A stretch of 64,000 bases of DNA from Actinomycetota bacterium. Lineage in GTDB: Bacteria > Actinomycetota > Actinomycetes > Mycobacteriales > Mycobacteriaceae. Positions 18,723 through 33,148 of the stretch are shown here, in pieces (positions within the stretch are counted from its first letter, which is position 1; each line of letters opens with the position of its first letter). Location: NCBI GenBank assembly GCA_018268465.1, contig JAFDWN010000016.1, forward strand, positions 86,354-150,353, in the 5' to 3' direction. Under the pieces are notes generated by a model that was not told the origin of the DNA, searched no databases, and worked only from the letters and a program-made list of their open reading frames with translations. The translations under genes were made by a program, and so were the position numbers.

Positions 18723-18808
18723 GTCCGAGTGGCGGAATGGCAGACGCGCTAGCTTGAGGTGCTAGTGCCCTATTAACGGGCGTGGGGGTTCAAGTCCCCC
18801 CTCGGACA
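18723..18808 (+). tRNA. tRNA-Leu (GAG)
   Basis: An 86-base class II tRNA. The acceptor stem is GTCCGAG at 18723-18729 pairing with CTCGGAC at 18801-18807, with discriminator A at 18808. The anticodon stem CTAGC/GCTAG encloses a loop with GAG, reading CUC leucine codons. The long variable arm (TGCCCTATTAACGGGCG) is normal for tRNA-Leu. The T-arm has the GTTCAAGTC consensus, and CCA is not encoded. It stands at the left edge of the accessory region, a common position for insertions. Confidence 0.97.
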
Positions 18809-19198
18809 CAACCGGCGACACGACCCAGGTCGGCCGTCGCCTCAACCCCTCGCAGGTGGGGATCGCAGTCAAGCCGCAGCCCCAGGCTGATGTACTCGCG
18901 TCTCGTACCCAGCGGCGAGGTTGGGTCAACGCGAACGGTTCGGCGAGCACATCCCACGCATCACGGTGATCGTCAGTTCGCCCGGTGCGGTGGCGGCGAT
19001 CGTCAGCCGATCGGCGCGCCGCGCCGCGGCCGGCGCATCGGACCGTTTGTGCCAATCGGCCAAGGATTGGCCGGTGACGATCCGCACCGCCAGAACATCG
19101 GTGGACCTGCCGATGCGAGCGGAGCGCACCGTCGGGATGAGGGTTCGCTCGGCGAGAGTGGCGGTCGCTGACTCCGCCAACATCGCTGCCCTCAGCGT
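18809..19198. other. gene-poor stretch after tRNA-Leu
   Basis: About 390 bases hold no convincing gene. Short open frames on both strands lack ribosome sites and recognisable motifs. No copy of the tRNA 3' end was seen here or near the right end of the accessory DNA. The neighbouring transposase fragment suggests this is a scar left by insertion and deletion. Confidence 0.5.
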
Positions 19199-19651
19199 CT
19201 ATCGCAATCGAATTAGCTTGCCCCGCCGCCCGTTCGAATGACGGGATCTGCTTGCTAGGTGAAGTTCAGGGTGCTCGTAGGTAGTGGGTGAGCGCATTCC
19301 GATTGCTGAATGCCCACGTTGATGACTATGGAATCCCATCCATTTGTCAACTGCTGCAACCAATCCAGACTTCGTTACGAAGGTGTGCCGGTAGTGGAAC
19401 TCGTGTTTGAACGTCGGCCACGACGATTCGGCGCCGGCGTTGTCCCAGATGCCGGTGGCCCCCATGGGCGGCGCAGACCGTGCCGTGAACACGCCGCAGC
19501 CCTGTCGTGGGAGGTTGCGCCCCACCATCGCCGACGCCACCAAGCCGGCTTCGGCCGGTTGACCACCGAGCCACCACTCGGCCCCGGCCCGGTCGGGCTG
19601 CAGGCGTTGGCCGGTCACCTCCAACCCGGGGCTCGTCGAGGCGACAGCCAC
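19199..19651 (-). pseudogene. IS3-family transposase C-terminal remnant
   Basis: The C-terminal half of the translated product resembles the end of an IS3/IS150-type DDE transposase. It shows WDNAGAESSWPTFKHEF, which aligns with the usual DNA-x-ES-F-T-LK-E signature carrying the catalytic glutamate. HYRHTF and WMGFHSHQRGHSAIGMRSPTTYE follow, matching the typical W-x-x-YN-x-x-R-x-HSALG-x-x-SP-x-x-YE ending. Residues 1-65 do not keep a clean transposase pattern and parts of it seem to lie in another frame, so it is decayed. No orfA, no first catalytic aspartates and no clear terminal inverted repeats were found. It lies about 170 bases upstream of the cyanophycin genes and may mark how they arrived. 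Confidence 0.75.
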
Positions 19652-19820
19652 CCCTACACCCTCATCTGCCGCACCCTCATCTGCAAAGAGCCAGATTCGT
19701 CGTGATGCTCCAGTTCAGCCGATGATCGTCCCGCATGTGGGGATACGCTCTGTTGCGTTGCGCGACTCTGTCCGACCGCGTTCTCGTGTGTAGATGCCCG
19801 ACGCTTGATGAGGATGCCCC

Positions 19821-22556
19821 ATGAACATCGATTCCATTCAGGTTTATGTCGGTCCGAACGTTCATGCGCGCGAGCCGGTGATCCGGCTCAAGCTGGACGT
19901 CAAGCCGAGCTATGCCGAAACCCTCAAGGGCCTGGGGGCGGGCGTGATCGACACATTGGCAGCGGTGCTGCCGGGCCTTGCGCTGGAACAGGCCGAGTGG
20001 CTTGCCGCATTACACGCCGGCGAGGGGCTTTCCATCGGCGATCTGGTCGCAAGGCTGGCTTTGGCACTTCAGCATGCCGCCGGCGTTGACGGCACACTAG
20101 CGTGGTCGGGATCGACGGGCGATCCAGATATTGTCGAGGTGTTCTACAGCTACGGCAATGAGGACATCGGTATCGAGGCCGGCGAGGTTGCCTGCGACAT
20201 GCTCGCGACCATCTCCCGTGCTGACTCCGATAATGAAGAGGCTCCCGACCTCGGCAAGAACGTCGAGGATTTCCTGGCCTATGCCGACAGGCATTCTCTG
20301 GGGCCCTCGGCCATGGAATTGGTACGTGCAGCGCAGGCCCGCGACATTCCGGTCTACCGGCTGAACGACGCCAGCCTGATCCAGGTCGGCGAGGGCAAGT
20401 ATCAGCAGCGGATCGAGGCGGCACTGACGTCGAAAACCTCACATATCGCTGTCGAAATCGCCTCGGACAAGAACCTCTGCAACACGATCCTTGCCGATCT
20501 CGGTCTGCCCGTGCCGAGGCAGAAGCTGGTCTACAGCGTGGACGAGGCGATGAGGGCGGCCGACCGCATCGGTTATCCCGTGGTCGTCAAGCCGCTCGAC
20601 GGCAACCATGGCCGGGGCGTCACCGCCAATATCACAGCCGAGGACGGCATCGCCGCCGCTTTCGAGACCGCCGATGCCGAAGGATCGGCCGTGTTGGTGG
20701 AGACCATGCTGCGCGGCGACGACCACCGGCTGCTGGTGGTCGATGGCCGGCTCGCCGCGGCGGCACGCCGGGTGCCGGGTCACGTGAAGGGCGACGGGCA
20801 CCACACCATTGCCGAGCTGGTGGATATCGTCAATCAGGACCCGCGCCGAGGCGTCGGGCACGAAAACGTGCTGACGCGGCTCGAACTCGACAATCAGGCG
20901 AAGCGCTTGCTTGAGGAAAAGGGCTACACCGAAAAGACGGTCCCCGCCGAGGGCGAGGAGGTGTATCTGCGCAAGACCGCGAATATCTCCACCGGCGGCA
21001 CGGCGGTGGATGTCACCGACACGATCCATCCCGACAACAAATTGATGGCCGAGCGGGCGATCCGGGCGATCGGGCTCGATATCGGCGCCGTGGATTTCCT
21101 GACCACCGATATCACCAGGAGCTATCGCGAGACCGGCGGCGGCATTTGCGAGATCAACGCGGGACCCGGCCTACGCATGCATATCGCGCCTTCCGAGGGC
21201 ACGCCGCGCGACGTGGGCGGAGCGATCATGGACATGCTCTTTCCGCCGGGCACCCAGATGCACGTTCCCATCGCCGCCGTGACCGGAACGAACGGCAAGA
21301 CCACGTGCTCACGCATGCTGGCGCACATCCTGAAAATGGCGGGCCATGTCGTGGGGCAGACCTCCACCGACGCCGTGGTGATCGACGGCAACGTGACTGT
21401 CAAGGGCGACATGACCGGGCCGGTCTCCGCCAAGATGGTGCTGCGCGATCCTTCGGTCGACATCGCGGTCCTGGAGACGGCGCGCGGCGGCATCGTCCGC
21501 TCCGGCCTGGGCTATAACTTTTGCGATGTCGGCGCGGTGCTGAACGTCGCGTCCGACCATCTCGGGCTCGGCGGCGTCGACACGCTGGACGGCCTTGCCC
21601 GGGTGAAACGCGTTGTCGCGGAAGTCACGCGTGGCACGGTGGTGCTGAACGCCGATGACGAGCAGACGCTGAAAATGGCGGCCTTCTCGCCCGCCAGGCA
21701 TGTCATGTATGTGACGCGCAACCCGGAGCATGAGCTGGTGCGCGAACATATCCGGCTCGGCAAACTTGCGGTCGTTCTGGAGCAGGGGGTGAACGGCGAC
21801 CAGATCGTGATATACGACAATGGCACACAGATGCCGCTGATGTGGACCCAGCTCATCCCGGCGACACTGGAAGGCAAAGCGCTGCACAACGTCGAAAACG
21901 CCATGTTCGCCGCCGGCATGGCCTATGCGCTTGGCAAGACACTGGATCAGGTCCGCACCGGACTGCGCACGTTCGATAACAGCTTCTTCCAGAGCCCCGG
22001 CCGGATGAATGTCTTCGACGAACACGGATTCCGCGTGATCCTCGACTATGGGCACAACGAGGCGGCGGTGGGGGCCATGGTCGACTTGGTCGACAGGCTC
22101 AAGCAGCGCGGGCGCCGGATCGTCTGCGTCACCTGCCCGGGTGACCGGCGCGACGAGGACGTGGCGGCTATTGCGGCTAAGGTTGCCGGCCATTTCGACG
22201 CCTACATCTGCCACCGCGACGACGATCCGCGCGATCGCAGGCCCGACGAGATGCCGAAGCTGATGCGGGCCGCCCTGATTGCCGAGGGTGTCGCGCCCGA
22301 CGCGATCACCATCATCGAGGAGGAGGAAAAGGCCCTCGATGCGGCGCTTTCGCAGGCGCAACCCGACGATCTGGTGTTGTTCTTCTGCGAGGCGATTACG
22401 CGCTGCTGGAAGCAGATCATCCACTTCACCCCGAAATTCACCGCGCCCGGACCGGAGCCCGTCTCAAAGCGTCTGGCAGCATCCACCTTCGACGTTCCCG
22501 ATGGCTTCGTTCTCACGTCGGATGATCGAGGTGTGCTGATCGTTCCGGCGAAATGA
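19821..22556 (+). CDS. cphA: cyanophycin synthetase
   Basis: Builds cyanophycin, a nitrogen-storage polymer of an aspartate backbone with arginine side chains, using ATP. It is 911 residues, the normal CphA1 length. The order is an N-terminal domain (about 1-160), then an ATP-grasp domain (about 210-480; YPVVVKPLDGNHGRGV, GGGICEINAGPGLRMH) that adds aspartate. A Mur-ligase-like domain follows (from about 485; P-loop GTNGKTTCSRM, ETARGGIVRSG, LDYGHNEAA) and adds arginine. The ATG at 19821 has TGAGGA eight bases upstream. It overlaps the next gene by ATGA. Tyrosine codons are often TAT and the style resembles alphaproteobacteria, unlike flanking genes, so recent transfer is likely. The enzyme looks intact. 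Confidence 0.96.
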   Translation: MNIDSIQVYVGPNVHAREPVIRLKLDVKPSYAETLKGLGAGVIDTLAAVLPGLALEQAEWLAALHAGEGLSIGDLVARLALALQHAAGVDGTLAWSGSTGDPDIVEVFYSYGNEDIGIEAGEVACDMLATISRADSDNEEAPDLGKNVEDFLAYADRHSLGPSAMELVRAAQARDIPVYRLNDASLIQVGEGKYQQRIEAALTSKTSHIAVEIASDKNLCNTILADLGLPVPRQKLVYSVDEAMRAADRIGYPVVVKPLDGNHGRGVTANITAEDGIAAAFETADAEGSAVLVETMLRGDDHRLLVVDGRLAAAARRVPGHVKGDGHHTIAELVDIVNQDPRRGVGHENVLTRLELDNQAKRLLEEKGYTEKTVPAEGEEVYLRKTANISTGGTAVDVTDTIHPDNKLMAERAIRAIGLDIGAVDFLTTDITRSYRETGGGICEINAGPGLRMHIAPSEGTPRDVGGAIMDMLFPPGTQMHVPIAAVTGTNGKTTCSRMLAHILKMAGHVVGQTSTDAVVIDGNVTVKGDMTGPVSAKMVLRDPSVDIAVLETARGGIVRSGLGYNFCDVGAVLNVASDHLGLGGVDTLDGLARVKRVVAEVTRGTVVLNADDEQTLKMAAFSPARHVMYVTRNPEHELVREHIRLGKLAVVLEQGVNGDQIVIYDNGTQMPLMWTQLIPATLEGKALHNVENAMFAAGMAYALGKTLDQVRTGLRTFDNSFFQSPGRMNVFDEHGFRVILDYGHNEAAVGAMVDLVDRLKQRGRRIVCVTCPGDRRDEDVAAIAAKVAGHFDAYICHRDDDPRDRRPDEMPKLMRAALIAEGVAPDAITIIEEEEKALDAALSQAQPDDLVLFFCEAITRCWKQIIHFTPKFTAPGPEPVSKRLAASTFDVPDGFVLTSDDRGVLIVPAK

Positions 22557-24757
22557 CAGGGAGACGTGGCAGAGTCTCATTCGCTCATCGTGGGGAGTTC
22601 CACCCGAAACTCGCGATCGTCGGCGGCCGGCTGGAAGATGACAATGCCGCCGTCTATGACGAGATGCGACGTCTGGCGGGCGGAAGGATCGTCGTCTTCG
22701 CGACGGCGTCGTCGGTGCCTGACGAAGTCGGCGCCGAAACCGTCGGCGTGTTTTGCGCCCATGGCTTCGATGCCGTCCTGGCGGGGGTTCACGGCGCCGG
22801 GGCGGTCCAGGCCGCCCAAGACAAGGCGATCGCCGATCTCGTCGAAGACTATGGCAACGTCTATTTCACCGGCGGCGACCAGGCCCTGATCACCGGGGCG
22901 CTGGCGCCGAAGGGCAGGGAAAGCCGAGTGCTGAAGGCGATCCGCCAAGCGCAGCGCAACGGTGCGATGGTCGCCGGGTCGAGTGCTGGGGCCGCCATCA
23001 TGTCCGATGTGATGATTTCCGGTGGCACGTCGCTGGAAGCTGCGACCTACGGTGTGGTCGATGACCCGGACCAGCCCGGAATGCTGCTGGAGCCGGGGCT
23101 CGGCTTCTTCCCATGGGGCATGATCGACCAGCATTTCATCAAGCGCGGCCGGTTCGGCCGGCTGGTCGTCGGCATGCAGGCGTCCGGCGCGAAGCGCGGC
23201 TTCGGCATAGACGAAAACACCGCCTTGTTCGTCGAGGGCAAGATTGCGCGGGTGATCGGCGAATATGGCGCCTTCGTGCTCCATCTCGAGGAGGCGAAAG
23301 TCGATCGCCGCCGCAAGCTGATCGAAAACATCGGTTTCAGCTATGCCGACAACGGTGACAGCTATGACCTGGAAACAGGTGAGGTCCTCCCCGGTCCGGG
23401 CAAGCGGCCGGTGACCCGGCGCGACATCATCTACGAGGCCCCCGCCCGCTCGCTCCGCAACGTCTTCGGCGCCTATACGCTCTACGATCTCGTGGCGCGG
23501 CTGGTGCTTGGGGACCCCGAGGCCTATCCGACGGATCGCGCCCGCGCGATAGAGCCCAGGGCGGGTTGCGCCACCAGCGTCGAGATATCCCGCCAGGGCG
23601 ACCATGCGGCCGCCTACATTCCTCGAGGCGGGCGTGGCTTCCGCATGACGGCAGTGGATTTTCGGGCCAGCATGCAGACGCGTCGGCTCAATGCGGCGCA
23701 ACTGGCGGCGAACCGGCGGGCGGCGCTGTCCCGCGACTACGGTGAGAAACCGGGAAAGCATGCGCGCGTGATGATGCTGGGCTCGGCGCCGCTCGACCAC
23801 GGCAGCCCGCTGCTTGCGGAATTGGCGTCGCATTGCGAGGGGCCGGTGGGTGTGCTTGCCGCCGCTTCCGCCGAGCCCCGCGCGACCGCGCGCGAATATG
23901 TCGGCGCCTTGCGCGGCCACGGCGTCGAGGCCACCGATCTGCGCGTCACCATCGACAATGTTGATCGCCGGATGCGCGAGGAAGCGCTGGTCGAGCAGAT
24001 CGCCGCCCTGCGCACCATCATCCTGACCGGCGGTAACCAGATCAGGCTGGTGGAATCCTTGCTCTACCGTGGCGATGTCACGCCGCTGCTGACCGCCATT
24101 GCGCGAGCGCGGGCGGCCGGCGCGATGATCGTCGGGGTCAGCGGCGCGGCCTCGGCGCTGTCCGGTTTCATGATCGGCGGCGGCACGTCCTACGAAGCGC
24201 TGCGCTTCGGCATTGCCTCGGATATGGGACGACACGGATTGGTGATCCAGGAAGGGTTGGGATTTTTTGGCGCCGCCATCGTCGACCAGAAACTGTCGTC
24301 CTCACGCCGTCTCGGCCGCCTTGCCGTCGCCTGCGCCGAGGAAGGCGCACGCTTCGGGCTCGGTCTTCTGGAAGAAAGCGGCGTCATCGCAAACCACGAC
24401 AACAGCCGCCTCACCGCGATCGGCGCGCGCGGCGCCGTCCTGGTCGAGATCGATCCGCTCAAGACCGAGCTTGCGGGTGACGAATTCATCGCGCCCGACA
24501 CGAGGCTGTGTTTCGCAGGCCCGGGGGACGTCATCGACATGGCGGCCGGGACCGTCACCCGGCTGGCACCGGCTGCCGCTTCCGCCGCCGTGCTGGATAC
24601 GCTCGTTGCCGAACTGATCGAGGAATGCGTCGGCAATGCCGGCCCGGTGACCACGCCTGGTGTCACACAGGAAGCGCATATTGCCTTGCGCTACCGCTCA
24701 CATGAGGATGGCACCGGCCATCTCGATATTGAGAGCATCCGTGATCGGCACGGATGA
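22553..24757 (+). CDS. tandem two-domain cyanophycinase (second domain probably inactive)
   Basis: A 734-residue fusion of two cyanophycinase-like (serine peptidase S51) domains. The family normally has one domain of about 270-300 residues that cuts cyanophycin to beta-Asp-Arg dipeptides. Domain 1 (about 18-270) has the nucleophile in AGSSAGAA (Ser144) and the active-site histidine in IDQHF (His194). Domain 2 (about 405-660) keeps a serine in GVSGAAS (Ser530), but the matching histidine is lysine in VDQKL (Lys580) and the residues after the serine are reordered. I infer domain 1 is catalytic and domain 2 structural or substrate-binding. The linker (about 280-400) matches nothing I know. The start overlaps the cphA stop (ATGA), so translation is coupled. 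Confidence 0.88.
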   Translation: MTGRRGRVSFAHRGEFHPKLAIVGGRLEDDNAAVYDEMRRLAGGRIVVFATASSVPDEVGAETVGVFCAHGFDAVLAGVHGAGAVQAAQDKAIADLVEDYGNVYFTGGDQALITGALAPKGRESRVLKAIRQAQRNGAMVAGSSAGAAIMSDVMISGGTSLEAATYGVVDDPDQPGMLLEPGLGFFPWGMIDQHFIKRGRFGRLVVGMQASGAKRGFGIDENTALFVEGKIARVIGEYGAFVLHLEEAKVDRRRKLIENIGFSYADNGDSYDLETGEVLPGPGKRPVTRRDIIYEAPARSLRNVFGAYTLYDLVARLVLGDPEAYPTDRARAIEPRAGCATSVEISRQGDHAAAYIPRGGRGFRMTAVDFRASMQTRRLNAAQLAANRRAALSRDYGEKPGKHARVMMLGSAPLDHGSPLLAELASHCEGPVGVLAAASAEPRATAREYVGALRGHGVEATDLRVTIDNVDRRMREEALVEQIAALRTIILTGGNQIRLVESLLYRGDVTPLLTAIARARAAGAMIVGVSGAASALSGFMIGGGTSYEALRFGIASDMGRHGLVIQEGLGFFGAAIVDQKLSSSRRLGRLAVACAEEGARFGLGLLEESGVIANHDNSRLTAIGARGAVLVEIDPLKTELAGDEFIAPDTRLCFAGPGDVIDMAAGTVTRLAPAAASAAVLDTLVAELIEECVGNAGPVTTPGVTQEAHIALRYRSHEDGTGHLDIESIRDRHG

Positions 24758-24778
24758 AACTACAAAGATCGGACAGTC

Positions 24779-25123
24779 ATGTATTTCGATGGGACCACCC
24801 TGACCACGCTGCTTTCCGATGCGGATAAAGCGGCTGCAAACGCCCCTGCCATTGCCGCCGCAGGGCCGCGGTACACCTCACCGCTCGCCGTCATCGAGGC
24901 CGCCATGGAGCTGCCCGAACTGGACGAGGCCGCCGTGACGGCCTTTCTCGATGCGCAGGGGATCGAACTGCGCGACATGCCCCCCGGTCATCGTTTGATC
25001 GCAGGGGCGCTGGCGACGGAAGGCAAGCTGAACGATCGCCTGCATGCCGCCTGTGCGGCCTATTACGAGACGGACGTGTTCGCGCTTCCCGCCGGCGAGC
25101 CGGAAGCTCCGCCGACGGAATGA
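24779..25123 (+). CDS. small PIN/VapC-like protein in cyanophycin cluster
   Basis: A 114-residue protein between the cyanophycinase and the zinc peptidase, 21 bases after the former. It reads like a shortened VapC-type PIN domain. The early acid is in MYFDGT (Asp4), and RYTSPLAVIEAAM is close to the helix with the second acid (Glu40). FLDAQGIELRDM and LNDRLHAACAAYY resemble the C-terminal half with a third acid (Asp86). The usual segment around the third acid is compressed and no VapB-like antitoxin gene is next to it. It may be a repurposed or inactive PIN fold serving the cyanophycin pathway; an unrelated small protein cannot be excluded. It shares the foreign codon habit of the cluster. 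Confidence 0.6.
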   Translation: MYFDGTTLTTLLSDADKAAANAPAIAAAGPRYTSPLAVIEAAMELPELDEAAVTAFLDAQGIELRDMPPGHRLIAGALATEGKLNDRLHAACAAYYETDVFALPAGEPEAPPTE

Positions 25124-25145
25124 GACAGGTGGAGTGAAAACCGCG

Positions 25146-26240
25146 ATGCGCCAGACCTACGATCTGCCGGGCTCGCCACATCGCCTGACCGTGCTGCGCT
25201 TCGGCGCGGCGGGGACGGGCGGGAAAGCCTATTTGCAGGCCGGACTGCATGCCGACGAGTTCCCCGGCATGCTGGTCTTACGCATTCTGGCCGGGCACCT
25301 GGCCGAAGCGGAAGCTCGCGGCGCGGTCCACGGTGAAATCCTGCTGGTGCCGCAGGCAAACCCGATCGGCCTGACGCAGACCGGCACCAGCTTCCTGTCC
25401 GGTCGGATCGAGAATGGCACGGGAGAGAATTTCAACCGGAACTATCCCGATCTGTCCGACCTCGGTGGCTTGTCGCTGGGGCCGGACGCGGCGTCGAATG
25501 TCCAAACGATCCGGGCCGCGATGGCGGCGAAACTTGCGGCGACGGCGCCGACGCCGGATGGGGCACTGGCACATCTGCGTCACAGATTGCTGACGCTCGC
25601 TCATGACGCCGACCTCGTGCTCGATCTTCACGCCGACAACGAGGCTGAGCCGCACATGTATGTCGGCCCGGCGCTGTGGCCGGCAGCCGAGGATATTGCC
25701 GCGGCGATCGATGCGCGAGCGGTGCTTCTGTCTGAGGTGTCGGGCGGTCACCCCTTCGATGAGGCCTGCGCCGGTCCATGGTGGGTGCTGGCCGCGAACT
25801 ATCCAGATCTGCCCATTCCGCCGGCCTGCCTCGCCGCCACGCTGGAGATGGGCAGCAATGATGATGTCGATCCCGAACGCGCCGCCGATCAAGCCACGGC
25901 GCTACTGCGGATGTTGCAGGCACGCGGTTTTGTCGATGGGTCGGGCGGACACCCGCGTTTGTCCTGCCGCGCCACGGCGCTGACGGCGATGGCGCAAGTG
26001 CGCTCGCCGGTCACGGGCCTCGTCGTCTATCGCCGTCGGCTGGGCGATCTGGTCCGCAAGGGCGATCTCGTCGCCACCGTGATCGATCCGCTCGGCGAGG
26101 AGACGGAATTGCTGGCCGAGACCGACGGGCGGCTCTTTGCCCGCCATAGCCAGCCCTATGCCTGGCCGGGACGGGTGATCGGCAAGATCGCCGGCGAAAT
26201 TCCGCTGGAGGGCAGAAAGGGCAATTTGCTTTCGGATTGA
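25146..26240 (+). CDS. M14-type zinc peptidase/deacylase (AstE/AspA-like) of the cyanophycin cluster
   Basis: A 364-residue member of the succinylglutamate desuccinylase/aspartoacylase branch of the M14 zinc carboxypeptidases. Zinc ligands are His35 and Glu38 in GLHADEFPG and His162 in LDLHADNE. Substrate-site motifs include NPIGL and NFNRNYPDL. A C-terminal beta-barrel of about 70 residues (from QVRSPVTGLVVYRR) is typical of AstE-like proteins. In this context the likely substrate is cyanophycin ends or the beta-Asp-Arg dipeptide. No isoaspartyl dipeptidase gene is nearby, so it could supply the last step. The ATG at 25146 is preceded by AGGTGGAG at a workable spacing; a GTG at 25134 is too close to that site. 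Confidence 0.82.
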   Translation: MRQTYDLPGSPHRLTVLRFGAAGTGGKAYLQAGLHADEFPGMLVLRILAGHLAEAEARGAVHGEILLVPQANPIGLTQTGTSFLSGRIENGTGENFNRNYPDLSDLGGLSLGPDAASNVQTIRAAMAAKLAATAPTPDGALAHLRHRLLTLAHDADLVLDLHADNEAEPHMYVGPALWPAAEDIAAAIDARAVLLSEVSGGHPFDEACAGPWWVLAANYPDLPIPPACLAATLEMGSNDDVDPERAADQATALLRMLQARGFVDGSGGHPRLSCRATALTAMAQVRSPVTGLVVYRRRLGDLVRKGDLVATVIDPLGEETELLAETDGRLFARHSQPYAWPGRVIGKIAGEIPLEGRKGNLLSD

Positions 26241-26331
26241 TGGGCTTCGCCGATCGCGTAAGGCCGTCGCGCAAAACGGCGGCTCGGGTCCTGGGCGGAT
26301 GCGCTGACGGAGACCAGGCAGCGGGTGGGAG

Positions 26332-26351
26332 CCGAGGTCACACGACCTCGG
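26332..26351. terminator. hairpin overlapping the AraC gene stop
   Basis: A perfect 8-bp stem (CCGAGGTC / GACCTCGG) with an ACAC loop contains the stop codon of the minus-strand AraC gene. It lies 92 bases past the end of the convergent cyanophycin operon, so it could end transcription from both sides. There is no U-tract. Confidence 0.45.
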
Positions 26352-27342
26352 GGGTGCGGCGGTAGGTGCTCGGAGCGCACCCGAACCAGCGTCGGCACGA
26401 CCGGGTGAGCACGCTCTGTTCGGAATACCCCAACAGCCGGGTGAGGTGGTCGAGGCTGATGTCGGTGTCGCGCAGGTATCTTTCGGCGGATTGGCGGCGG
26501 ACCTTGTCGACCAGCGCCCCGAAGCTGGTCCCTTCGGCACTGAGTCGGCGCTGTAGTGCTCGGGGATGCATCTGCAGATGCGCGGCGACGAGTTCGATCC
26601 GCAACGAACCCGTCGGCAGCAGCATGCCGGTCAACTCCGCGATAGTCTGGGCCACCGTCGGAGCCGGCCGCGCGGCCATCTCGGAAAGGACCATGACCGC
26701 GGCGTCGTGCGCCGGACCGTCGTGGTGCAGCCGTCGCCGGAGGTCGGCGCGGCGTAGCACGAATCCGGCTGCCGGTGCGGCGAAATGCGGTGTGCATCGG
26801 AAGTCGCGGACGTAGTCCGACGCCGGCGCCAACGCCGAATGCGGCAGATGAACCGCGATGGGCGTGTAGTCGGCGCCCAGGATCGCGCGCAGGATCTGCA
26901 GTGCGGCACCCAACGACAGCTCGGTAGCCTGGCGCTGGCAGGGCGGCGGATCGAGCAGGATGCCGAATTCGAAGAACGCCGTGCCGTCGTCGGCGGAGGG
27001 ATTCAGGCGCACCCGCAGGCCGGGGCTGTGCGCGCTGATGTATGTGGCGAAGACCGCGAAGGCGTCGGCCAGTGTCGACGCCGTTTGCGCAGCAATACCC
27101 ACCGGGCCGATCGTTTCGATCCCGCGCCGGGCGGCCAACCTCCGTCCGAAGTCTCGTGCCCTGGTGACGTCGGCGGCGAGTTCGAGCGCCTCGACGGCGC
27201 CGCGCAGCGGGATGACGCGGTCGTATCGACCGGCATCCTGCGGCGAGACCCCTGCGGCCACCAAGATCGGGTCGCCGTCCGCACCGAGTTCGGCCACCAG
27301 ATCCCGGAACCCCAGCAGGCAGGTCGCGCGGATAGCGTGCAC
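26338..27342 (-). CDS. AraC-family transcriptional regulator
   Basis: A transcription factor of about 334 residues with an arabinose-binding-like N-terminal half (from RATCLLGFRDLVAELG) and a C-terminal AraC helix-turn-helix. The DNA-binding part shows LQMHPRALQRRLSAEGTSF and then SLDHLTRLLGYSEQSVLTRSCRRWFG, the two half-helix motifs. I chose the GTG at 27342, where the family homology begins; GTG at 27381 or TTG at 27417 would extend it. It faces away from a truncated beta-keto acid cleavage gene, which was probably its target, and is convergent with the cyanophycin genes. Its codon use is mycobacterial (Tyr mostly TAC). Confidence 0.88.
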   Translation of the reverse strand: MHAIRATCLLGFRDLVAELGADGDPILVAAGVSPQDAGRYDRVIPLRGAVEALELAADVTRARDFGRRLAARRGIETIGPVGIAAQTASTLADAFAVFATYISAHSPGLRVRLNPSADDGTAFFEFGILLDPPPCQRQATELSLGAALQILRAILGADYTPIAVHLPHSALAPASDYVRDFRCTPHFAAPAAGFVLRRADLRRRLHHDGPAHDAAVMVLSEMAARPAPTVAQTIAELTGMLLPTGSLRIELVAAHLQMHPRALQRRLSAEGTSFGALVDKVRRQSAERYLRDTDISLDHLTRLLGYSEQSVLTRSCRRWFGCAPSTYRRTPEVV

Positions 27343-27530
27343 GGCTGGAATCTCGATCAGATGTCGCGAAATGTCAAGCACCCAGCTCGGCGGACTCGCA
27401 CAATCGCCACCGTGCAATCACCTGAGGCGGGGCCGGCCCATCGCCCGGGCTTGTGGGGTCCTGCCCTGCCGGTCATGACGGAATGGGATCCGTCATGGAC
27501 GCCGGCGTGCCGGGCGGTGAGCGCCTATCC

Positions 27531-27887
27531 ATGGCGCGCGAACGTGCTCCCATCTCGACCATATGCATCGCGCTGGGCCAGCATGTGCGGGCGGGCATCG
27601 AAGACAACCTCTGGGGACCGATGAAGGGGCAGCGGTTCACCACTGTGGAGATGGTCCGCAAGATGGTAAGTATCGCAAGCGAATTGGGTCGTCCGATCGC
27701 GACCGCCGAAGAGACCAAGCGGATTCTCAAACTCGGTGAGTGGTACGACACCGCGGAGGAGACGCTGTTCAAGCTCGGCTTGCCGCCCAACCCGCAAGAC
27801 GGTGAACGCGGATTCCTGACCTACGACACCGACGGACGGATTCCCGCACTCGCGGAAACGCCATCGGATCCCAGATACGTGCTGTGA
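27531..27887 (+). pseudogene. C-terminal remnant of a beta-keto acid cleavage enzyme (BKACE)
   Basis: About 118 residues match only the C-terminal third of the BKACE family (3-keto-5-aminohexanoate cleavage enzyme type, normally about 280-310 residues). Recognisable blocks are ALGQHVRAGIEDNLWGP and MVRKMVSIASELGRPIATAEET followed by RILKLG. The TIM-barrel N-terminal portion and its metal-binding residues are absent, and the DNA upstream runs directly into the divergent AraC gene. I read it as a deletion relic. The frame is still open from 27453, so a short product could be made, but it could not be catalytic. It suggests the ancestor had an AraC-regulated BKACE operon here. Confidence 0.72.
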
Positions 27888-27943
27888 CCCCACTGCACGT
27901 CAGCACCCGACAGCAAGGAAGTGACCGAGTGACAGGAATTCCG

Positions 27944-28216
27944 ATGAGAACAATCGCGGCGACGCTGTTCGCGGCGCTGACCGCAACCGTCGTCCCCCTC
28001 GTCATCGCCCCGGCTGCGCAGGCCGACGTGTGCGGCGATGTCGGCGGCCGGCATGTCGAGGTCGGCGGGTGTACCGACATTGCCGGCGACGTCGTGGCCG
28101 GCGCTACGGTCGCCACCGACGACGACGCCGCCGCCCAGGCCGCCGCGGGGCTGCCACCCTGTTACACCCCGGCGGGGGTTCCCTACTACACCCCGGCCGG
28201 ATACCCCTGTAACTGA
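27944..28216 (+). CDS. small secreted protein with YTPAG repeats
   Basis: A 90-residue precursor with a clear signal peptide (MRTIAATLFAALTATVVPLV, cleavage likely after AQA). The mature part of about 60 residues has four cysteines (VCGD, GGCTD, PPCYT, PCN). It ends in a short tandem of the YTPAG motif, twice within CYTPAGVPYYTPAGYPC. No family is recognised. Small Cys-containing secreted proteins of this kind are common in mycobacteria. An AGGAAT site sits in front of the ATG at 27944; a GTG at 27929 with AAGGAAG upstream is a good alternative. It follows the BKACE fragment on the same strand. Confidence 0.7.
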   Translation: MRTIAATLFAALTATVVPLVIAPAAQADVCGDVGGRHVEVGGCTDIAGDVVAGATVATDDDAAAQAAAGLPPCYTPAGVPYYTPAGYPCN

Positions 28217-28289
28217 CAGGATGCCCGCCGCTTGGCTGCCTGGCCGATCCCGTTCTGACAACCGGATCGCCCCGCCGCCGGCGGCGCGG

Positions 28290-28997
28290 TCACAGCCAGC
28301 GCGGCGGCGCGATACCGGGATCGGCGTGCAGGCCGGCGGCTCCCCGCCCCGCCATCCAGCGCACCACCGCGGGCAACGGCCCCGCCACAGTGGGACCACC
28401 CGAGCCCAGAGTGACCGGCGCCCTGCCGTCGGCGAGTAGCACGATGCCGGGTGTCGGGTCGGCGTTTCGCCACCCGCCGGCGATATCTGCCATCAGCCCG
28501 TCGAGGACGGATTCGGGAAAATCGGCGAACCCAGCGCCGTTGTCGAGGTCCACGGCGTGGATCCACACCTCCCGCGCGCGCATCCACACCGTTTCCGTCG
28601 CGGGCACCGACCGGCCCTGCGCAGTGCGCACGGTCGCCCCCCAGGCCGCATCGGGCAGACTGCGCCATTTCTCGTCAAGCCGCGCCACGGTGTCGTCGAA
28701 CAGGTTCCGCAGGACTCCCGGGCTCAGCGTGGCGCCCGCGCCGATCTCCTCGGCCCGGTGCTGTGCCGACGGGTACATCGGCGTCTCCACGCCAGTAGCT
28801 GCCCAGTCCAGCAGTCGGCAGATCGCCGCGGCGTTGTAGCCGACATGGGCCACCAGGTGACGGCGGCTCCAGCCCGTCAGGAGCGTCGGCGCGTCCAACT
28901 GCTCGTCGGTCAGCGTCGCCAGCCCCTGCGCGAACAGCGCGGTGCCGCGGCGGGTGATGGCCAGTCGCTCGGGCAGTTCGAGGTCATCGAAAGCCAC
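28290..28997 (-). CDS. maleylpyruvate isomerase / mycothiol-dependent family protein
   Basis: A protein of about 235 residues in the DinB-like mycothiol-dependent (MDMPI) family. Metal-ligand positions are visible: a histidine in SRRHLVAHVGYNA and a Glu-x-x-x-His in REVWIHAVDL. The C-terminal domain (GGWRNADPTPGIVLLADG onward) is also characteristic. True maleylpyruvate isomerase works in gentisate breakdown, but no such genes are nearby, so the substrate is unknown; thiol transfer using mycothiol is the general theme. The start is the GTG at 28997. An ATG at 29021 would add eight residues. It stands downstream of the nitrate reductase gene on the same strand, separated by about 107 bases. 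Confidence 0.82.
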   Translation of the reverse strand: MAFDDLELPERLAITRRGTALFAQGLATLTDEQLDAPTLLTGWSRRHLVAHVGYNAAAICRLLDWAATGVETPMYPSAQHRAEEIGAGATLSPGVLRNLFDDTVARLDEKWRSLPDAAWGATVRTAQGRSVPATETVWMRAREVWIHAVDLDNGAGFADFPESVLDGLMADIAGGWRNADPTPGIVLLADGRAPVTLGSGGPTVAGPLPAVVRWMAGRGAAGLHADPGIAPPRWL

Positions 28998-29104
28998 GGG
29001 GCCACAGCCTACGTGGCGCATTTGATCCGGGTGGTGTTCTTGGCCGATCCCAAACCCTCGACCCGTGACCCCGGCCTTACCCGCGGGTGGGGTGGGGCCG
29101 GAGG

Positions 29105-32100
29105 TCAGTACACGTCGCGCACGTAACGCTTGTCCGCCACCAACTCGCGCTTGTACTCGTGGGTCTGTTCGTCGGACAACCCGCCGTGCTCCTTGATGAT
29201 GGCGCTCAGCGCGGTGTCGACGTCCTTGGCCATTCGGGTGGCGTCACCACACACGTAGAAGTGCGCTCCATCCTCCAGCCAGCGCCAGACGTCGGCACCG
29301 TAGTCGAGCATCTTGTGCTGCACGTACACCCGTTTGGCCTGATCACGGGAGAAGGCCAGGTCGAGCCGGTTCAGGAAGCCGTCGGCGACCATATCCTCAA
29401 GATCGGTGCGGTAGTAGAAGTTCTCGCTGCGATGCTGGTCGCCGAAGAACAGCCAGTTGCGTCCGGTGTGCCCGAGCGCGCGCCGTTCCTGCAGGAAGCC
29501 GCGGAACGGGGCGATACCGGTGCCCGGCCCCACCATGATCATCGGTGTCGAGGATTCCTCGGGCGGGCGGAAATGGGGTGAGCGCTGCAGGAACACCGGC
29601 ACCGGCGCATCGGCGCGGTCGGCGAGGAACGTCGAGCAGACCCCGCCGCGGGCACCGCCGTCGGCGCCGTGGTAACGCACCACCGACACCGTCAGCTGCA
29701 CCTCGTGCGGGCTGACGAGCGGGCTGGAGGAGATCGAGTAGTTCCGCGGGGTCAGCCGCACGAGTACGTCGCGCCACAGCTCGGGCTCGGCGTCCACCCC
29801 GAACTCGGCGACGATGTCCAGCCCGTTGCGGTTGACCAGCCACTTCTGTAGCCGGTCGCGTGGCGCGGCGAGCGTCTCCGCCGCCGACCGGTTGCGGCTG
29901 TGTTCCGCGACGAACCGCAGCAAGTCGGGGGTTACCCGGCAGATGTCGTAGCGCCGGGTCAGCGCGTCGCGCAGGGTCTCCTCCGCACCGTCAATCTCGA
30001 CGACGTGCTCACCGTCCAGGCCGGTGGCTGCCAACCATGCGGCCACCACGGCCGGATCGTTGGGGGCGAGCACGCCCAGCGAGTCGCCCACCGAGTAAGC
30101 CACGTCGTATTCGGAGATGTCGAAACCGAACTGCCGCACCTCTTTCGCTGACCCGGGGGCGGTGAGCACGGTGTTGCGGCACAGCGGGGCCAGGACCGGA
30201 TTGCCGCGGGTGAACGGATCAGCCCCGGCAGGTTTACGCCGGGCCGTGGCGGGGCTGGGCGCCGACGCGGGGGTACCGACCATCTCGGCCACCCGATCGG
30301 CCCAGCGGGTCATCGGCTCGTCGTCGTAGGCCTCGCATTCGGTGCGCGCGACCAGGGAGGTCGCGCCGAGCGCGGTCAGCCGGCCGTCGAGGGATTTCGC
30401 GTGCCCGCAGAAGTTCTCGTAGGACCGGTCGCCGATGCCCAGGACGGCGTAGCGCACCCCGTCGAGGCTGGGCGCGTCCGGAGACTCCAGCCGGCTCCAG
30501 AAGTCCGCGCCGTTGTCCGGCGGCCCGCCGTCGCCGAAGGTGCTCGTCACCACCAGCACCTCACGCGCCGCGGCCAGGTCGGACAACGCCAGATCGTCCA
30601 TGTTCACCAGCCGCGCGCCGGGCAGCCGTTCGGCGAGCTGGCCCGCGAAATCCTCGGCGGTTCCGGTCTGCGACGCCCACAGCACCAGCGGCCCGTCGGC
30701 GGGCTCCTCGGGACCCGCGGTGTTCCGCGAGTAACGGCCCGCCAGCAGACCGTTCACCCACAGCCGGAGCGGCGCGCTCACCGGCGCGGAGTCCGGCAGC
30801 ACCGGAACACCCGCCACATCGTCGGTCAGAGCGCTGAAAAACGCTGCAAGGTAGATCTTCTCGTCTTCGCCGGGAACGGGTTCGGGTTGCCCGACCAGGC
30901 CGAGTCGCACCGCGATCGGGTGGGCGCCCGCCGGTGTCGTGACCGGCGCCAGCGGGCGCAGCCCGACCGCACACACCTTGAATTCGGGCTGCAACGAGTC
31001 CGGGTCGACCGCGTCGTTGGTCAACGCGTTGACGGTCAGGTACTCGCCGTGTTCGTCGTTCCAGTGGAACGGGACGAAGCAACTGCCGGGCCGGATCCGG
31101 TCGGTGAGGACCGCGGGCAGCACGGCACGGCCCCGGCGCGAGGTCAGCTCGACGGACTGTCCGGGGGCGATGTCCAGGTCGGCGGCGTCCGCCGGGTTCA
31201 CCTCGACGAACGGGCCGCGGTTGAGTTTGTTGAGTTTGTCGACCTTGCCGGTCTTGGTCATGGTGTGCCACTGATGCTGCAGACGGCCGGTGTTGAGGAC
31301 ATACGGGAAGTCGGTGACGGCCGGATCGGGCAGCTCCGCGGCCTCCACATGCGGGCGAGGGTGGAACACGGCGCGCCGCGACGGCGTCGGGAACGCCAGC
31401 CTGGGGCGGTGGCCGTGCTCGTCGACGAACAACGTCTGACTCACACCGTCGTTGAGGTAGCGGATGGGGTGGCGGTCCCGGTCTCCCCCGGGCAGGTCCT
31501 GCGGGGGCACCGGCCACTGCAACGGTGTGCGGCGCAGCCGCTCGTAGGTGGCCCCCCGCAGGTCGTAGCCGGTCTTCGGGTTGGAGAACCGCCGGATCTC
31601 GTCGAAGATCTGTTCGCTGGACTTGAAGGCGAACGCCTCGCCGAACCCCAGATGTTCGGCGACGGCGCAGATCAGCTCCCAGTCGGGGCGGGCATCGCCG
31701 ACGGGCGGGATGGACTGCGTCAACAGGGTCAGGTTGCGTTCGGAATTGACCATCACCGCATCGGATTCGGCCCACAGCGTCGCGGGCAGCACGATATCGG
31801 CGTACCGGTTGGTGGCGGTGCCGTGATACACGTCCTGGGTGATGACGAGTTCCGCGGTCTCCAGACCATTGATCACGGTCCTGCGGTTCGCCATGCTGGC
31901 CACCGGATTGGTGCAGATGATCCAGCAGGCCTTGATCTCGCCGTCGGCCATTCTGCGGAACATCTCGACGGTGCCCGGCCCGACCTCGGAGCGGATTGCG
32001 CCCGGTTCCAGATCCCACTGGGTTTCCACGAACTCCCGGTCGTCGGCGGCGAGCACCGCGCGCTGTCCCGGCAGACCGGGGCCCATGTACCCCATTTCGC

Positions 32101-33148
32101 GTCCGCCCATGGCGTTGGGCTGACCGGTCAGCGACATCGGCCCGCTGCCCGGACGGCAGATCGCGCCGGTCGCCAGATGCAGATTGCAGATCGCGTTGGT
32201 GTTCCAGGTGCCGTGGGTGCTCTGGTTGAGGCCCATGGTCCAGCAGCTCATCCAGTCGCCGGCCTCGGCGATCATGCGCGCCGCGCCGCGGATGTCGGCT
32301 TCGTCCAGCCCGGTGATCTCGGCGACGCGCGCCGGCGGGTAGTCGGCGAGGAACGCGGGCATCGCTTCCCACCCCGTGGTGTGCTCGGCGATGAATTCCT
32401 GCTCGATGTCACCGTTTTCGACCAGCAGATGCAGCAGGCCGTTGAGCAGCGCCAGGTCGGTGCCGGGCCGGATGGGCAGGTAGAGATCGGCGTGCTCGGC
32501 GGTGGTGGTGCGGCGGGGGTCGACGACGATCAGCTTGGCGCCCGCCTTGAGACGCTCGGCCATCCGCAGGTACAGGATGGGATGACAGTCGGCCATATTC
32601 GAGCCGATGACGAAAAACAGGTCCGTGCAGTCGAAGTCGGTGTACGACCCGGGCGGCCCGTCGGCACCGAGGGACTGTTTGAAACCTGTTCCCGCGCTGG
32701 CCATGCACAATCGGGAATTCGACTCGATGTGCACGGTGCGCAGATAACCCTTGGCCAGCTTGGTGGCCAGATACTGCGCCTCGATCGACATCTGACCCGA
32801 GACGTACAACGCGACCGCATCGGGCCCGTGCTCGTCGACGATGGTGCGCAGCCGCCTGGCCGCCTCGGCGACGGCGTCGTCCACCGGGGTGGGGGTGAGA
32901 ACGTCGTCCCGGCTACCCCGCACCAGCGCCGTCGTGAGGCGATCGTCGTCGGCCCGCATCATCTCGGCATGCGTGGCCCCTTTTGTGCACAGCCGGCCGA
33001 AGTTGGTCGGGTGCAGCTTGTCACCGCTGACCCGGGCGATGACCGGTCGCCCGGTCGCCGGATCGGCGGTCGTCTGCACGGAGATACCACAGCCCACACC
33101 GCAGTACGAACATGCGGTGCGGGCTGTGGTGCTGTCGGGAACCGTCAT
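29105..33148 (-). CDS. nasN: assimilatory nitrate reductase fused to a flavodoxin/FAD/NAD(P)H reductase
   Basis: A 1347-residue fusion that should reduce nitrate to nitrite with electrons taken directly from NAD(P)H. The N-terminal molybdopterin enzyme has the 4Fe-4S cysteines Cys13, Cys16, Cys20 and Cys54. The likely Mo-ligand cysteine is in NSRLCMASAG near residue 149, and GADGPPGSYTDFDC follows. A flavodoxin domain begins near 817 (ASQTGTAEDFAGQLAERLPG). The FAD site is RNYSISSSPL near 1138. The nucleotide site is VGPGTGIAPFRGFLQERRALG near 1207, with YVCGDA later. The layout is that of the M. smegmatis assimilatory enzyme, which I recall being called NasN. It lies 9 bases after narK, in one operon. 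Confidence 0.93.
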   Translation of the reverse strand: MTVPDSTTARTACSYCGVGCGISVQTTADPATGRPVIARVSGDKLHPTNFGRLCTKGATHAEMMRADDDRLTTALVRGSRDDVLTPTPVDDAVAEAARRLRTIVDEHGPDAVALYVSGQMSIEAQYLATKLAKGYLRTVHIESNSRLCMASAGTGFKQSLGADGPPGSYTDFDCTDLFFVIGSNMADCHPILYLRMAERLKAGAKLIVVDPRRTTTAEHADLYLPIRPGTDLALLNGLLHLLVENGDIEQEFIAEHTTGWEAMPAFLADYPPARVAEITGLDEADIRGAARMIAEAGDWMSCWTMGLNQSTHGTWNTNAICNLHLATGAICRPGSGPMSLTGQPNAMGGREMGYMGPGLPGQRAVLAADDREFVETQWDLEPGAIRSEVGPGTVEMFRRMADGEIKACWIICTNPVASMANRRTVINGLETAELVITQDVYHGTATNRYADIVLPATLWAESDAVMVNSERNLTLLTQSIPPVGDARPDWELICAVAEHLGFGEAFAFKSSEQIFDEIRRFSNPKTGYDLRGATYERLRRTPLQWPVPPQDLPGGDRDRHPIRYLNDGVSQTLFVDEHGHRPRLAFPTPSRRAVFHPRPHVEAAELPDPAVTDFPYVLNTGRLQHQWHTMTKTGKVDKLNKLNRGPFVEVNPADAADLDIAPGQSVELTSRRGRAVLPAVLTDRIRPGSCFVPFHWNDEHGEYLTVNALTNDAVDPDSLQPEFKVCAVGLRPLAPVTTPAGAHPIAVRLGLVGQPEPVPGEDEKIYLAAFFSALTDDVAGVPVLPDSAPVSAPLRLWVNGLLAGRYSRNTAGPEEPADGPLVLWASQTGTAEDFAGQLAERLPGARLVNMDDLALSDLAAAREVLVVTSTFGDGGPPDNGADFWSRLESPDAPSLDGVRYAVLGIGDRSYENFCGHAKSLDGRLTALGATSLVARTECEAYDDEPMTRWADRVAEMVGTPASAPSPATARRKPAGADPFTRGNPVLAPLCRNTVLTAPGSAKEVRQFGFDISEYDVAYSVGDSLGVLAPNDPAVVAAWLAATGLDGEHVVEIDGAEETLRDALTRRYDICRVTPDLLRFVAEHSRNRSAAETLAAPRDRLQKWLVNRNGLDIVAEFGVDAEPELWRDVLVRLTPRNYSISSSPLVSPHEVQLTVSVVRYHGADGGARGGVCSTFLADRADAPVPVFLQRSPHFRPPEESSTPMIMVGPGTGIAPFRGFLQERRALGHTGRNWLFFGDQHRSENFYYRTDLEDMVADGFLNRLDLAFSRDQAKRVYVQHKMLDYGADVWRWLEDGAHFYVCGDATRMAKDVDTALSAIIKEHGGLSDEQTHEYKRELVADKRYVRDVY

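Follow-up and report, generated by a model that had tools for sequence, protein, structure and literature searches.

How a mycobacterium came to hold genes for cyanophycin, and whether they could still serve both the making and the breakdown of the polymer, are the questions raised by the DNA analyzed here. The window, namely the whole stretch of 64,000 nucleotides analyzed (positions 86,354 to 150,353 of contig JAFDWN010000016.1, assembly GCA_018268465.1, family Mycobacteriaceae), carries at 19821-26240 four genes, encoding a cyanophycin synthetase (CphA), a two-domain cyanophycinase, a small PIN-like protein, and an M14-type protein resembling CphZ. We consider it highly probable that this four-gene unit (hereafter, the cassette) is a complete, self-contained cyanophycin operon of Paracoccus/Sinirhodobacter-like origin, which moved among mycobacteria by the steps proposed below. 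The preliminary description of this DNA regarded cyanophycin storage as undescribed in mycobacteria, and we likewise found no report of cyanophycin in mycobacteria, including Mycolicibacterium, among the open-licence papers listed. With broad search terms, nothing relevant on a fused cyanophycinase or on a PIN protein associated with cyanophycin was found among the titles listed. The operon is of a known kind; what is new is the mycobacterial host, the two-domain cyanophycinase with an apparently dead domain, and the PIN-like gene.

The operon and its predicted enzymes

The following features make up the operon.
19672..19820, plus strand: upstream block common to mycobacterial-type cassettes, probable promoter and leader (similarity starts at 19672-19732; absent in Rhodobacteraceae loci)
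19821..22556, plus strand: cphA1, cyanophycin synthetase, 911 amino acids (TIGR02068, 995 bits; PDB 7lgn/7lgm)
22553..24757, plus strand: two-domain cyanophycinase, 734 amino acids (TIGR02069, two stretches)
22604..23422, plus strand: cyanophycinase domain 1, residues 18-290, catalytic residues kept (GSSAGA, DQHF..R.R..R, and IDE motifs; PDB 7uqv, 3en0)
23750..24622, plus strand: cyanophycinase domain 2, residues 400-690, probable pseudo-enzyme (Lys or Asn at the His position; dN/dS 0.231)
24779..25123, plus strand: small PIN-like protein, 114 amino acids (PF01850, 26.3 bits)
25146..26240, plus strand: predicted cphZ-type beta-Asp-Arg dipeptidase (M14, AstE/AspA family), 364 amino acids (PDB 8ein/8eip; PF24827)

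Open reading frames (ORFs), family assignments, and PDB matches agreed with the earlier claim that the four genes form one closely spaced operon. The ORF analysis indicated that an ATGA overlap joins cphA to the cyanophycinase gene; the gap from there to the PIN-like gene is 21 bp, and that from the PIN-like gene to the M14-type gene is 22 bp if the latter starts with the ATG at 25146, its reading frame being already open from 25044. The arrangement is more than chance, since the same gene order was also seen in other mycobacteria and in Paracoccus/Sinirhodobacter. The upstream block could be aligned across 15 loci. The median dN/dS values among nine mycobacterial-type loci (36 pairs) were 0.146, 0.233, 0.316, and 0.146 for cphA, the cyanophycinase gene, the PIN-like gene, and cphZ, respectively; selection among these loci is thus purifying, and all four reading frames are open both in the window and in the nine loci.

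The TIGR02068 match of CphA exceeded the cut-off of 850 bits and covered positions 2-860 of 862, with a full-length ATP-grasp and Mur-ligase architecture, and the matching PDB entries 7lgn (1473 bits) and 7lgm (1441 bits) are both titled cyanophycin synthase. Judging from its family, CphA1 would join aspartate and arginine into the storage polymer.

The cyanophycinase matched TIGR02069 with 229 bits (cut-off, 126.6) in two stretches, as it did Pfam S51. The term double cyanophycinase in the preliminary description was thus right about the two S51 stretches, whereas the catalytic residues are kept in the first domain only, which is also the only domain matched by PDB entries 7uqv, 3en0, and 7uqw. 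We take the catalytic set to be Ser-His-Glu, with its positions placed by alignment to 3en0 and 7uqv. In an alignment of 19 rows (the window and 18 loci, as for the PIN-like protein below), the DQH..R.R..R motif of domain 1, with the His, was present in every row, and the Ser and Glu motifs were kept in 18, the remaining row (L032) starting after the first (Ser) motif. In domain 2, the catalytic His was replaced in all 19 rows, by Lys (12) or Asn (7), and the Ser position was occupied by Gly in six. The two domains were nevertheless under equal constraint, with dN/dS of 0.210 for domain 1 against 0.231 for domain 2 in the nine mycobacterial-type loci. The loss of the domain-2 His predates the transfer discussed below, because the cyanophycinase of Tatumella morbirosei already has Asn at that position. 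The first domain is predicted to cut the polymer into beta-Asp-Arg dipeptides, and the second, its catalysis lost, is probably a built-in, non-catalytic partner for assembly, polymer binding, or control.

The M14-type protein matched PF24827 (AstE_AspA_cat) with 57 bits, and its residues 6-359 matched PDB entries 8ein (403 bits) and 8eip (400 bits), with which its HADE, DLHAD, and LE.GSND motifs, containing the conserved His and Glu, could be aligned. Both entries bear the name succinylglutamate desuccinylase in the PDB and are presumably CphZ. According to PMC10206079, neighbors of CphA1-cyanophycinase clusters that carry an M14 or succinylglutamate desuccinylase annotation act as beta-Asp-Arg/Lys dipeptidases, and a dipeptidase role is proposed for the fourth gene on this ground; the enzyme would split the dipeptides into aspartate and arginine. 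On paper, then, the window operon has a complete predicted gene set for synthesis and breakdown of cyanophycin.

The PIN-like protein matched PF01850 only weakly (cut-off, 23.6 bits). Among its 19 members, Pfam PIN was matched in ten at E up to 0.1, and a VapC30 match was found at E 0.037. A PIN fold would have four acidic residues; here, D4 and E40 were present in 18 of 19 members, E97 was invariant, and D86 was variable. The PIN-like proteins at L033:8610-9074 and L020:12232-12687 have variable tails after residue 100, rich in APQTD-like repeats. No antitoxin gene adjoins the PIN-like gene in the window, the short gaps given above being all that separates it from its neighbors. The gene was found in 11 of 297 genomes of the genus, exactly those with the cassette CphA, and it occupies the same position in the mycobacterial-type loci and in five Paracoccus/Sinirhodobacter loci (L028-L031, L037); it was not found in the Tatumella and Burkholderia genomes searched. 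Among 295 Rhodobacteraceae-type genomes, 19 of which have cphA, the one strong match came from a cphA-bearing member of that family (G321), and three weak ones (41, 22, and 22 bits) came from genomes without a cphA match. This distribution marks the PIN-like gene as belonging to one subgroup of cyanophycin operons, of which its product may be a dedicated accessory.

Carriers and source of the operon

A CphA search at 1e-100 matched 12 of the 297 genus genomes, and 11 of these carry this cassette (the window genome, G000, and others at 86-94% identity). The twelfth match (G119) was only 31% identical and is not this cassette; in all, three genus genomes hold CphA-like genes of 31-39% identity that do not belong to it (G032:C347:1669-3882, G312:C629:6-1634, and G119:C12:367256-369385). 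The preliminary description had named presence at this locus in most mycobacteria with a vertical phylogeny as a finding that would count against it; what we found was a minority of carriers, at differing loci. A scan with the double cyanophycinase yielded 27 loci, 19 of them at 83-92% identity, of which 17 are titled mycobacteria, actinobacteria, or bins of them. The other two of the 19, short contigs titled Acidobacteria and Gammaproteobacteria (L018 and L035), carry the mycobacterial-type cassette at 88-90% and are probably mis-binned. The other loci included five from Paracoccus/Sinirhodobacter (66-75%), and those of Amaricoccus (51%), Tatumella (58%), and Burkholderia (64% over the best part). 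Where their flanks were compared, L020 and L027 did not differ. Within the genus, L016, L017, L026, and L062 correspond to genomes G147, G009, G308, and G028, respectively; the coordinates of the first three place them in the genus of the window, and the host is accordingly a mycobacterium of the Mycolicibacterium type.

The source of the operon was examined with a tree of 30 CphA proteins, built by a quick method with SH-aLRT support only and with a warning of long branches at the outgroup. The ten mycobacterial-type rows formed one clade (SH-aLRT 100), which grouped with Sinirhodobacter and Paracoccus limosus at a support of 99, nested among the Paracoccus/Sinirhodobacter rows and within Proteobacteria; three CphA from other families of the same order formed a separate branch (43-44% identical). 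The closest alphaproteobacterial CphA was only 83% identical to that of the window, and the CphA of T. morbirosei was 73% identical. The earlier view that synthesis and breakdown are both encoded in a mycobacterium is supported, and the genes are of foreign origin by this tree. It is likely, as far as these trees and sequences indicate, that the operon entered mycobacteria once, from a Paracoccus/Sinirhodobacter-like donor, and gained or brought the short upstream block.

In comparison with the CphA1-cyanophycinase-CphZ clusters of alpha- and gammaproteobacteria (PMC10206079), the window operon has the same three enzyme steps in adjacent genes, and both have an M14/AstE-AspA-type dipeptidase in place of IadA/IaaA. 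Unlike those clusters, it has a mycobacterial host, a cyanophycinase fused with a probably dead second domain, and a PIN-like gene between the cyanophycinase gene and cphZ. Paracoccus/Sinirhodobacter operons (L028, L029, L031, L037) share its order of cphA, two-domain cyanophycinase, PIN-like gene, and cphZ, but add upstream a divergent Lrp/AsnC-type gene, an APC permease gene, and a Usp gene, whereas the mycobacterial unit is without these and has its own upstream block. The native actinobacterial cyanophycin genes share the host phylum with the window, whereas their dipeptidase is different and the CphA of three genomes of the order forms a separate branch; all 35 CphA1-bearing Actinomycetota genomes counted in Table 2 of PMC10206079 have IadA and/or IaaA. 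Cyanophycin genes have likewise crossed lineages in Octadecabacter, with horizontally gained clusters (PMC3646047), and in activated sludge, with a cphA flanked by insertion sequences (PMC10687191), with other hosts and gene sets. Unlike the activated-sludge cphA, the mycobacterial cassette was not seen to have a flanking pair of insertion sequences.

Insertion beside tRNA-Leu and probable movement within the genus

The site of the cassette in the window is described by the following features.
18723..18809, plus strand: tRNA-Leu(gag), ancestral, left edge of the insertion (ARAGORN; syntenic M20-peptidase/tRNA-Leu block in genus relatives)
18810..29104, no strand: 10.3-kb insertion separating tRNA-Leu from the nitrate reductase gene (in G028, L062, the two have 8 bp between them)
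19199..19651, minus strand: rve_3 integrase-core fragment, probably an insertion-sequence remnant (Pfam PF13683, 31.2 bits)
26338..27417, minus strand: AraC-type regulator (DNA 68% identical to that of another next to this genome's arginine locus)
27548..27826, plus strand: 279-bp piece (77% similar to a stretch of a BKACE gene next to that arginine locus)
29105..33148, minus strand: ancestral gene resembling nitrate reductase, right edge of the insertion and no partner of the cassette (molybdopterin and flavodoxin/FAD/NAD domains; synteny)

A clean empty site was found in G028, where 8 bp separate the tRNA-Leu from the nitrate reductase gene, against 10,295 bp in the window. A nitrate-reductase match follows the same tRNA in seven of eight relatives examined, L065 having none within its 20 kb. 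The preliminary description had read the nearby nitrate genes as part of a nitrogen-economy theme; because the tRNA-Leu and the nitrate reductase gene adjoin in G028, the nitrate genes are old residents, and such a partnership is ruled out by the empty site. Furthermore, cassettes elsewhere have other neighbors. In the window, the operon would have arrived as part of the 10.3-kb insertion, which also seems to carry a piece of the arginine-locus neighborhood, as suggested by the resemblance of the AraC gene and the 279-bp piece to genes there. At the insertion ends, the longest shared word was 8 bp and did not lie at the tRNA, no direct repeat of the tRNA 3' end was found, and no intact integrase was detected among the ORFs scanned in 18810-29104, which contained only the rve_3 fragment. 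Thus, neither of the two marks of a tRNA-integrated element, the direct repeat and the site-specific integrase, was found.

The 3' side of this tRNA-Leu(gag) is variable in relatives (L059-L066): in seven of them, the nitrate reductase gene follows after unlike sequences of 8 bp to about 13 kb, the relatives other than G028 having 1.1-13 kb of other DNA at this place. A 235-bp block of the window (18931-19166) also occurs 1.7-4 kb past the same tRNA-Leu in the cassette-free relatives L064 and L065; it is an earlier occupant of this place.

When the window is compared with other mycobacterial-type cassettes, similarity of the DNA starts at 19672-19732 (89-149 bp before cphA) and stops at 26240-26252 (0-12 bp after cphZ), and the window flanks matched none of 17 compared mycobacterial-type loci beyond the upstream block. 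The right-hand neighbors differ; those that could be identified were as follows: AraC (window), Mu-type transposase (L016), NAD-binding oxidoreductase (L017), uracil-type permease (L021), DUF808 (L023), aminotransferase (L025), amino-acid permease (L026), FMN oxidoreductase (L032), glycosyltransferase (L033), NucS (L038), MFS (L039), M1 peptidase (L041), and histidine genes (G261). In G009, the approximate positions are 2.44 Mb for the tRNA-Leu block and 5.25 Mb for the cassette; in G261, the core DNA that flanks the G009 cassette is found near 5.91 Mb, and the cassette of G261 itself is near 2.73 Mb. The chromosomal sites differ for G000, G009, G261, and M26, and the neighbor genes point to differing sites for the remaining loci.

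The ratio of cphA to rpoB divergence varied from 0.61 to 2.47 (28 pairs, eight genomes; rpoB was not matched in two of the 11 carriers, and G236, with an incomplete cphA, was left out). For example, G147 and G261 differ by 10.7% in rpoB and 6.5% in cphA, and G308 and G009 by 5.9% and 14.5%, respectively. Topology tests used alignments of 6364 columns for the entire cassette and 2319 columns for rpoB; the rpoB data rejected the cassette tree in the approximately unbiased (AU) test (p-AU 1e-12). The end of similarity at the cassette, the mostly different neighbors, the varying divergence ratios, and the rejection of the cassette tree by rpoB make it probable that the unit moved within the genus, along with some vertical descent. 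Transfer from one mycobacterium to another would have brought it to new sites, in many cases next to genes for arginine permease or arginine catabolism.

Several observations weigh against this interpretation. Flanks are shared on both sides in L020/L027/L033, as arginine genes in L025/L026, and over 509 bp in L016/L024, so part of the spread was vertical. The rpoB tree was only borderline rejected by the cassette data (p-AU 0.053), and none of three AU tests of single clades reached significance (0.27, 0.19, and 0.065), so that the case for within-genus transfer comes from rpoB, the divergence ratios, and the positions. Neither a recombinase nor a direct repeat was found at the window insertion, and no cphZ was present in the stretch examined from P. 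amoyensis (L030). Finally, cphA may be lost in places, because it is broken in L032 and, in the complete chromosome of M. litorale F4 (L017:7267-10004, G009), is split between two frames near residue 441, either by real loss or by sequencing error.

If the operon had been acquired once, long ago, and then inherited vertically, with many losses and rearranged chromosomes but no transfer among mycobacteria, this would explain the one mycobacterial CphA clade, the common upstream block, and the flanks shared in L020/L027/L033, and it agrees with an rpoB tree not rejected by the cassette at 0.05. This alternative is nevertheless improbable in view of the fourfold spread of the cphA/rpoB ratio, the strong rejection of the cassette tree by rpoB, the clean empty site in G028, and the different sites in G000, G009, and G261. 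Slightly less credible still is an operon that is decaying and no longer makes cyanophycin, or that makes another Asp-based polymer. The damaged cphA of M. litorale F4 and L032 would fit such decay, and a cphA frameshift had been named in the preliminary description as a finding that would refute it; one does exist in the former relative, but the window cphA is free of it, all four genes are open in the window and nine loci with median dN/dS of 0.15-0.32, and CphA retains its above-mentioned identity to that of T. morbirosei. Contamination, with a piece of alphaproteobacterial contig mis-joined into a mycobacterial genome, can be rejected for the cassette as such, despite a contamination score of 5.86% for the window assembly and a third-position G+C content (GC3) of 0.75-0.81 in the cassette versus 0.86-0.90 in flanking core genes, since the same cassette is found in ten further genus genomes, including the single-contig G009 and G261, with a mycobacterial-only upstream block, mycobacterial flanks, and no alphaproteobacterial CphA closer than that noted above.

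Possible vehicles and signals of movement were also searched for. Plasmid carriage was rejected, because the 17 PLSDB records matching cassette DNA included none that covered 80% of it and none that was mycobacterial by the first word of the organism name. Two pattern matches in viral contigs contained no relative of the cassette. A common motif just 3' of cphZ was not detected, the pairwise local score having the same median (8) as shuffled DNA; the top score, 51, belongs to a pair from a set of loci that includes the flank-sharing L020/L033. The flanks of L022/L039 share 223 bp, and a permease gene is common to many loci.

Arginine neighbors and possible roles

Arginine permease and arginine-catabolism genes are better functional neighbors of the cassette than the nitrate genes. 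A cationic-type amino-acid permease gene was found within 6 kb of the cassette in eight of ten cassette genomes; it lies elsewhere in G000 and had no match at 1e-60 in G147. The native arginine locus (L111) contains genes for DDAH, a class-III aminotransferase (rocD-like), an amino-acid permease, Usp, and arginine deiminase. The cassette lies inside the arginine locus in M26 and between a proline/P5C dehydrogenase gene and a rocD-like gene in L025, and the Paracoccus/Sinirhodobacter operons likewise start with such a permease and a Usp gene. The stored arginine may come from uptake as well as from synthesis.

If the polymer is made, some environmental mycobacteria would be able to store nitrogen and arginine in a way that the open-licence literature searched does not describe for the genus, and the operon would be a tractable example of a metabolic gene set that changed phylum and then, repeatedly, host and site. 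Two of its parts can be tested, namely the conserved, predicted catalytically dead cyanophycinase domain and the PIN-like protein, which accompanies only this operon in the 297 genus genomes. A more speculative idea, which we offer with considerable doubt, is that the cassette is a portable trait module, spread by repeated insertion at unrelated sites without a recombinase of its own and kept by its link to arginine uptake and catabolism, in which the dead S51 domain and the PIN-fold protein might form a new control unit. Such a unit would hold the active hydrolase on the polymer, or regulate it there, and would thereby keep storage and breakdown, although encoded on one transcript, from cancelling each other.

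A permease-Usp gene pair was present both in the Paracoccus-type cyanophycin operon (L028:4099-7225) and in the native mycobacterial arginine locus (L111:7188-9520).

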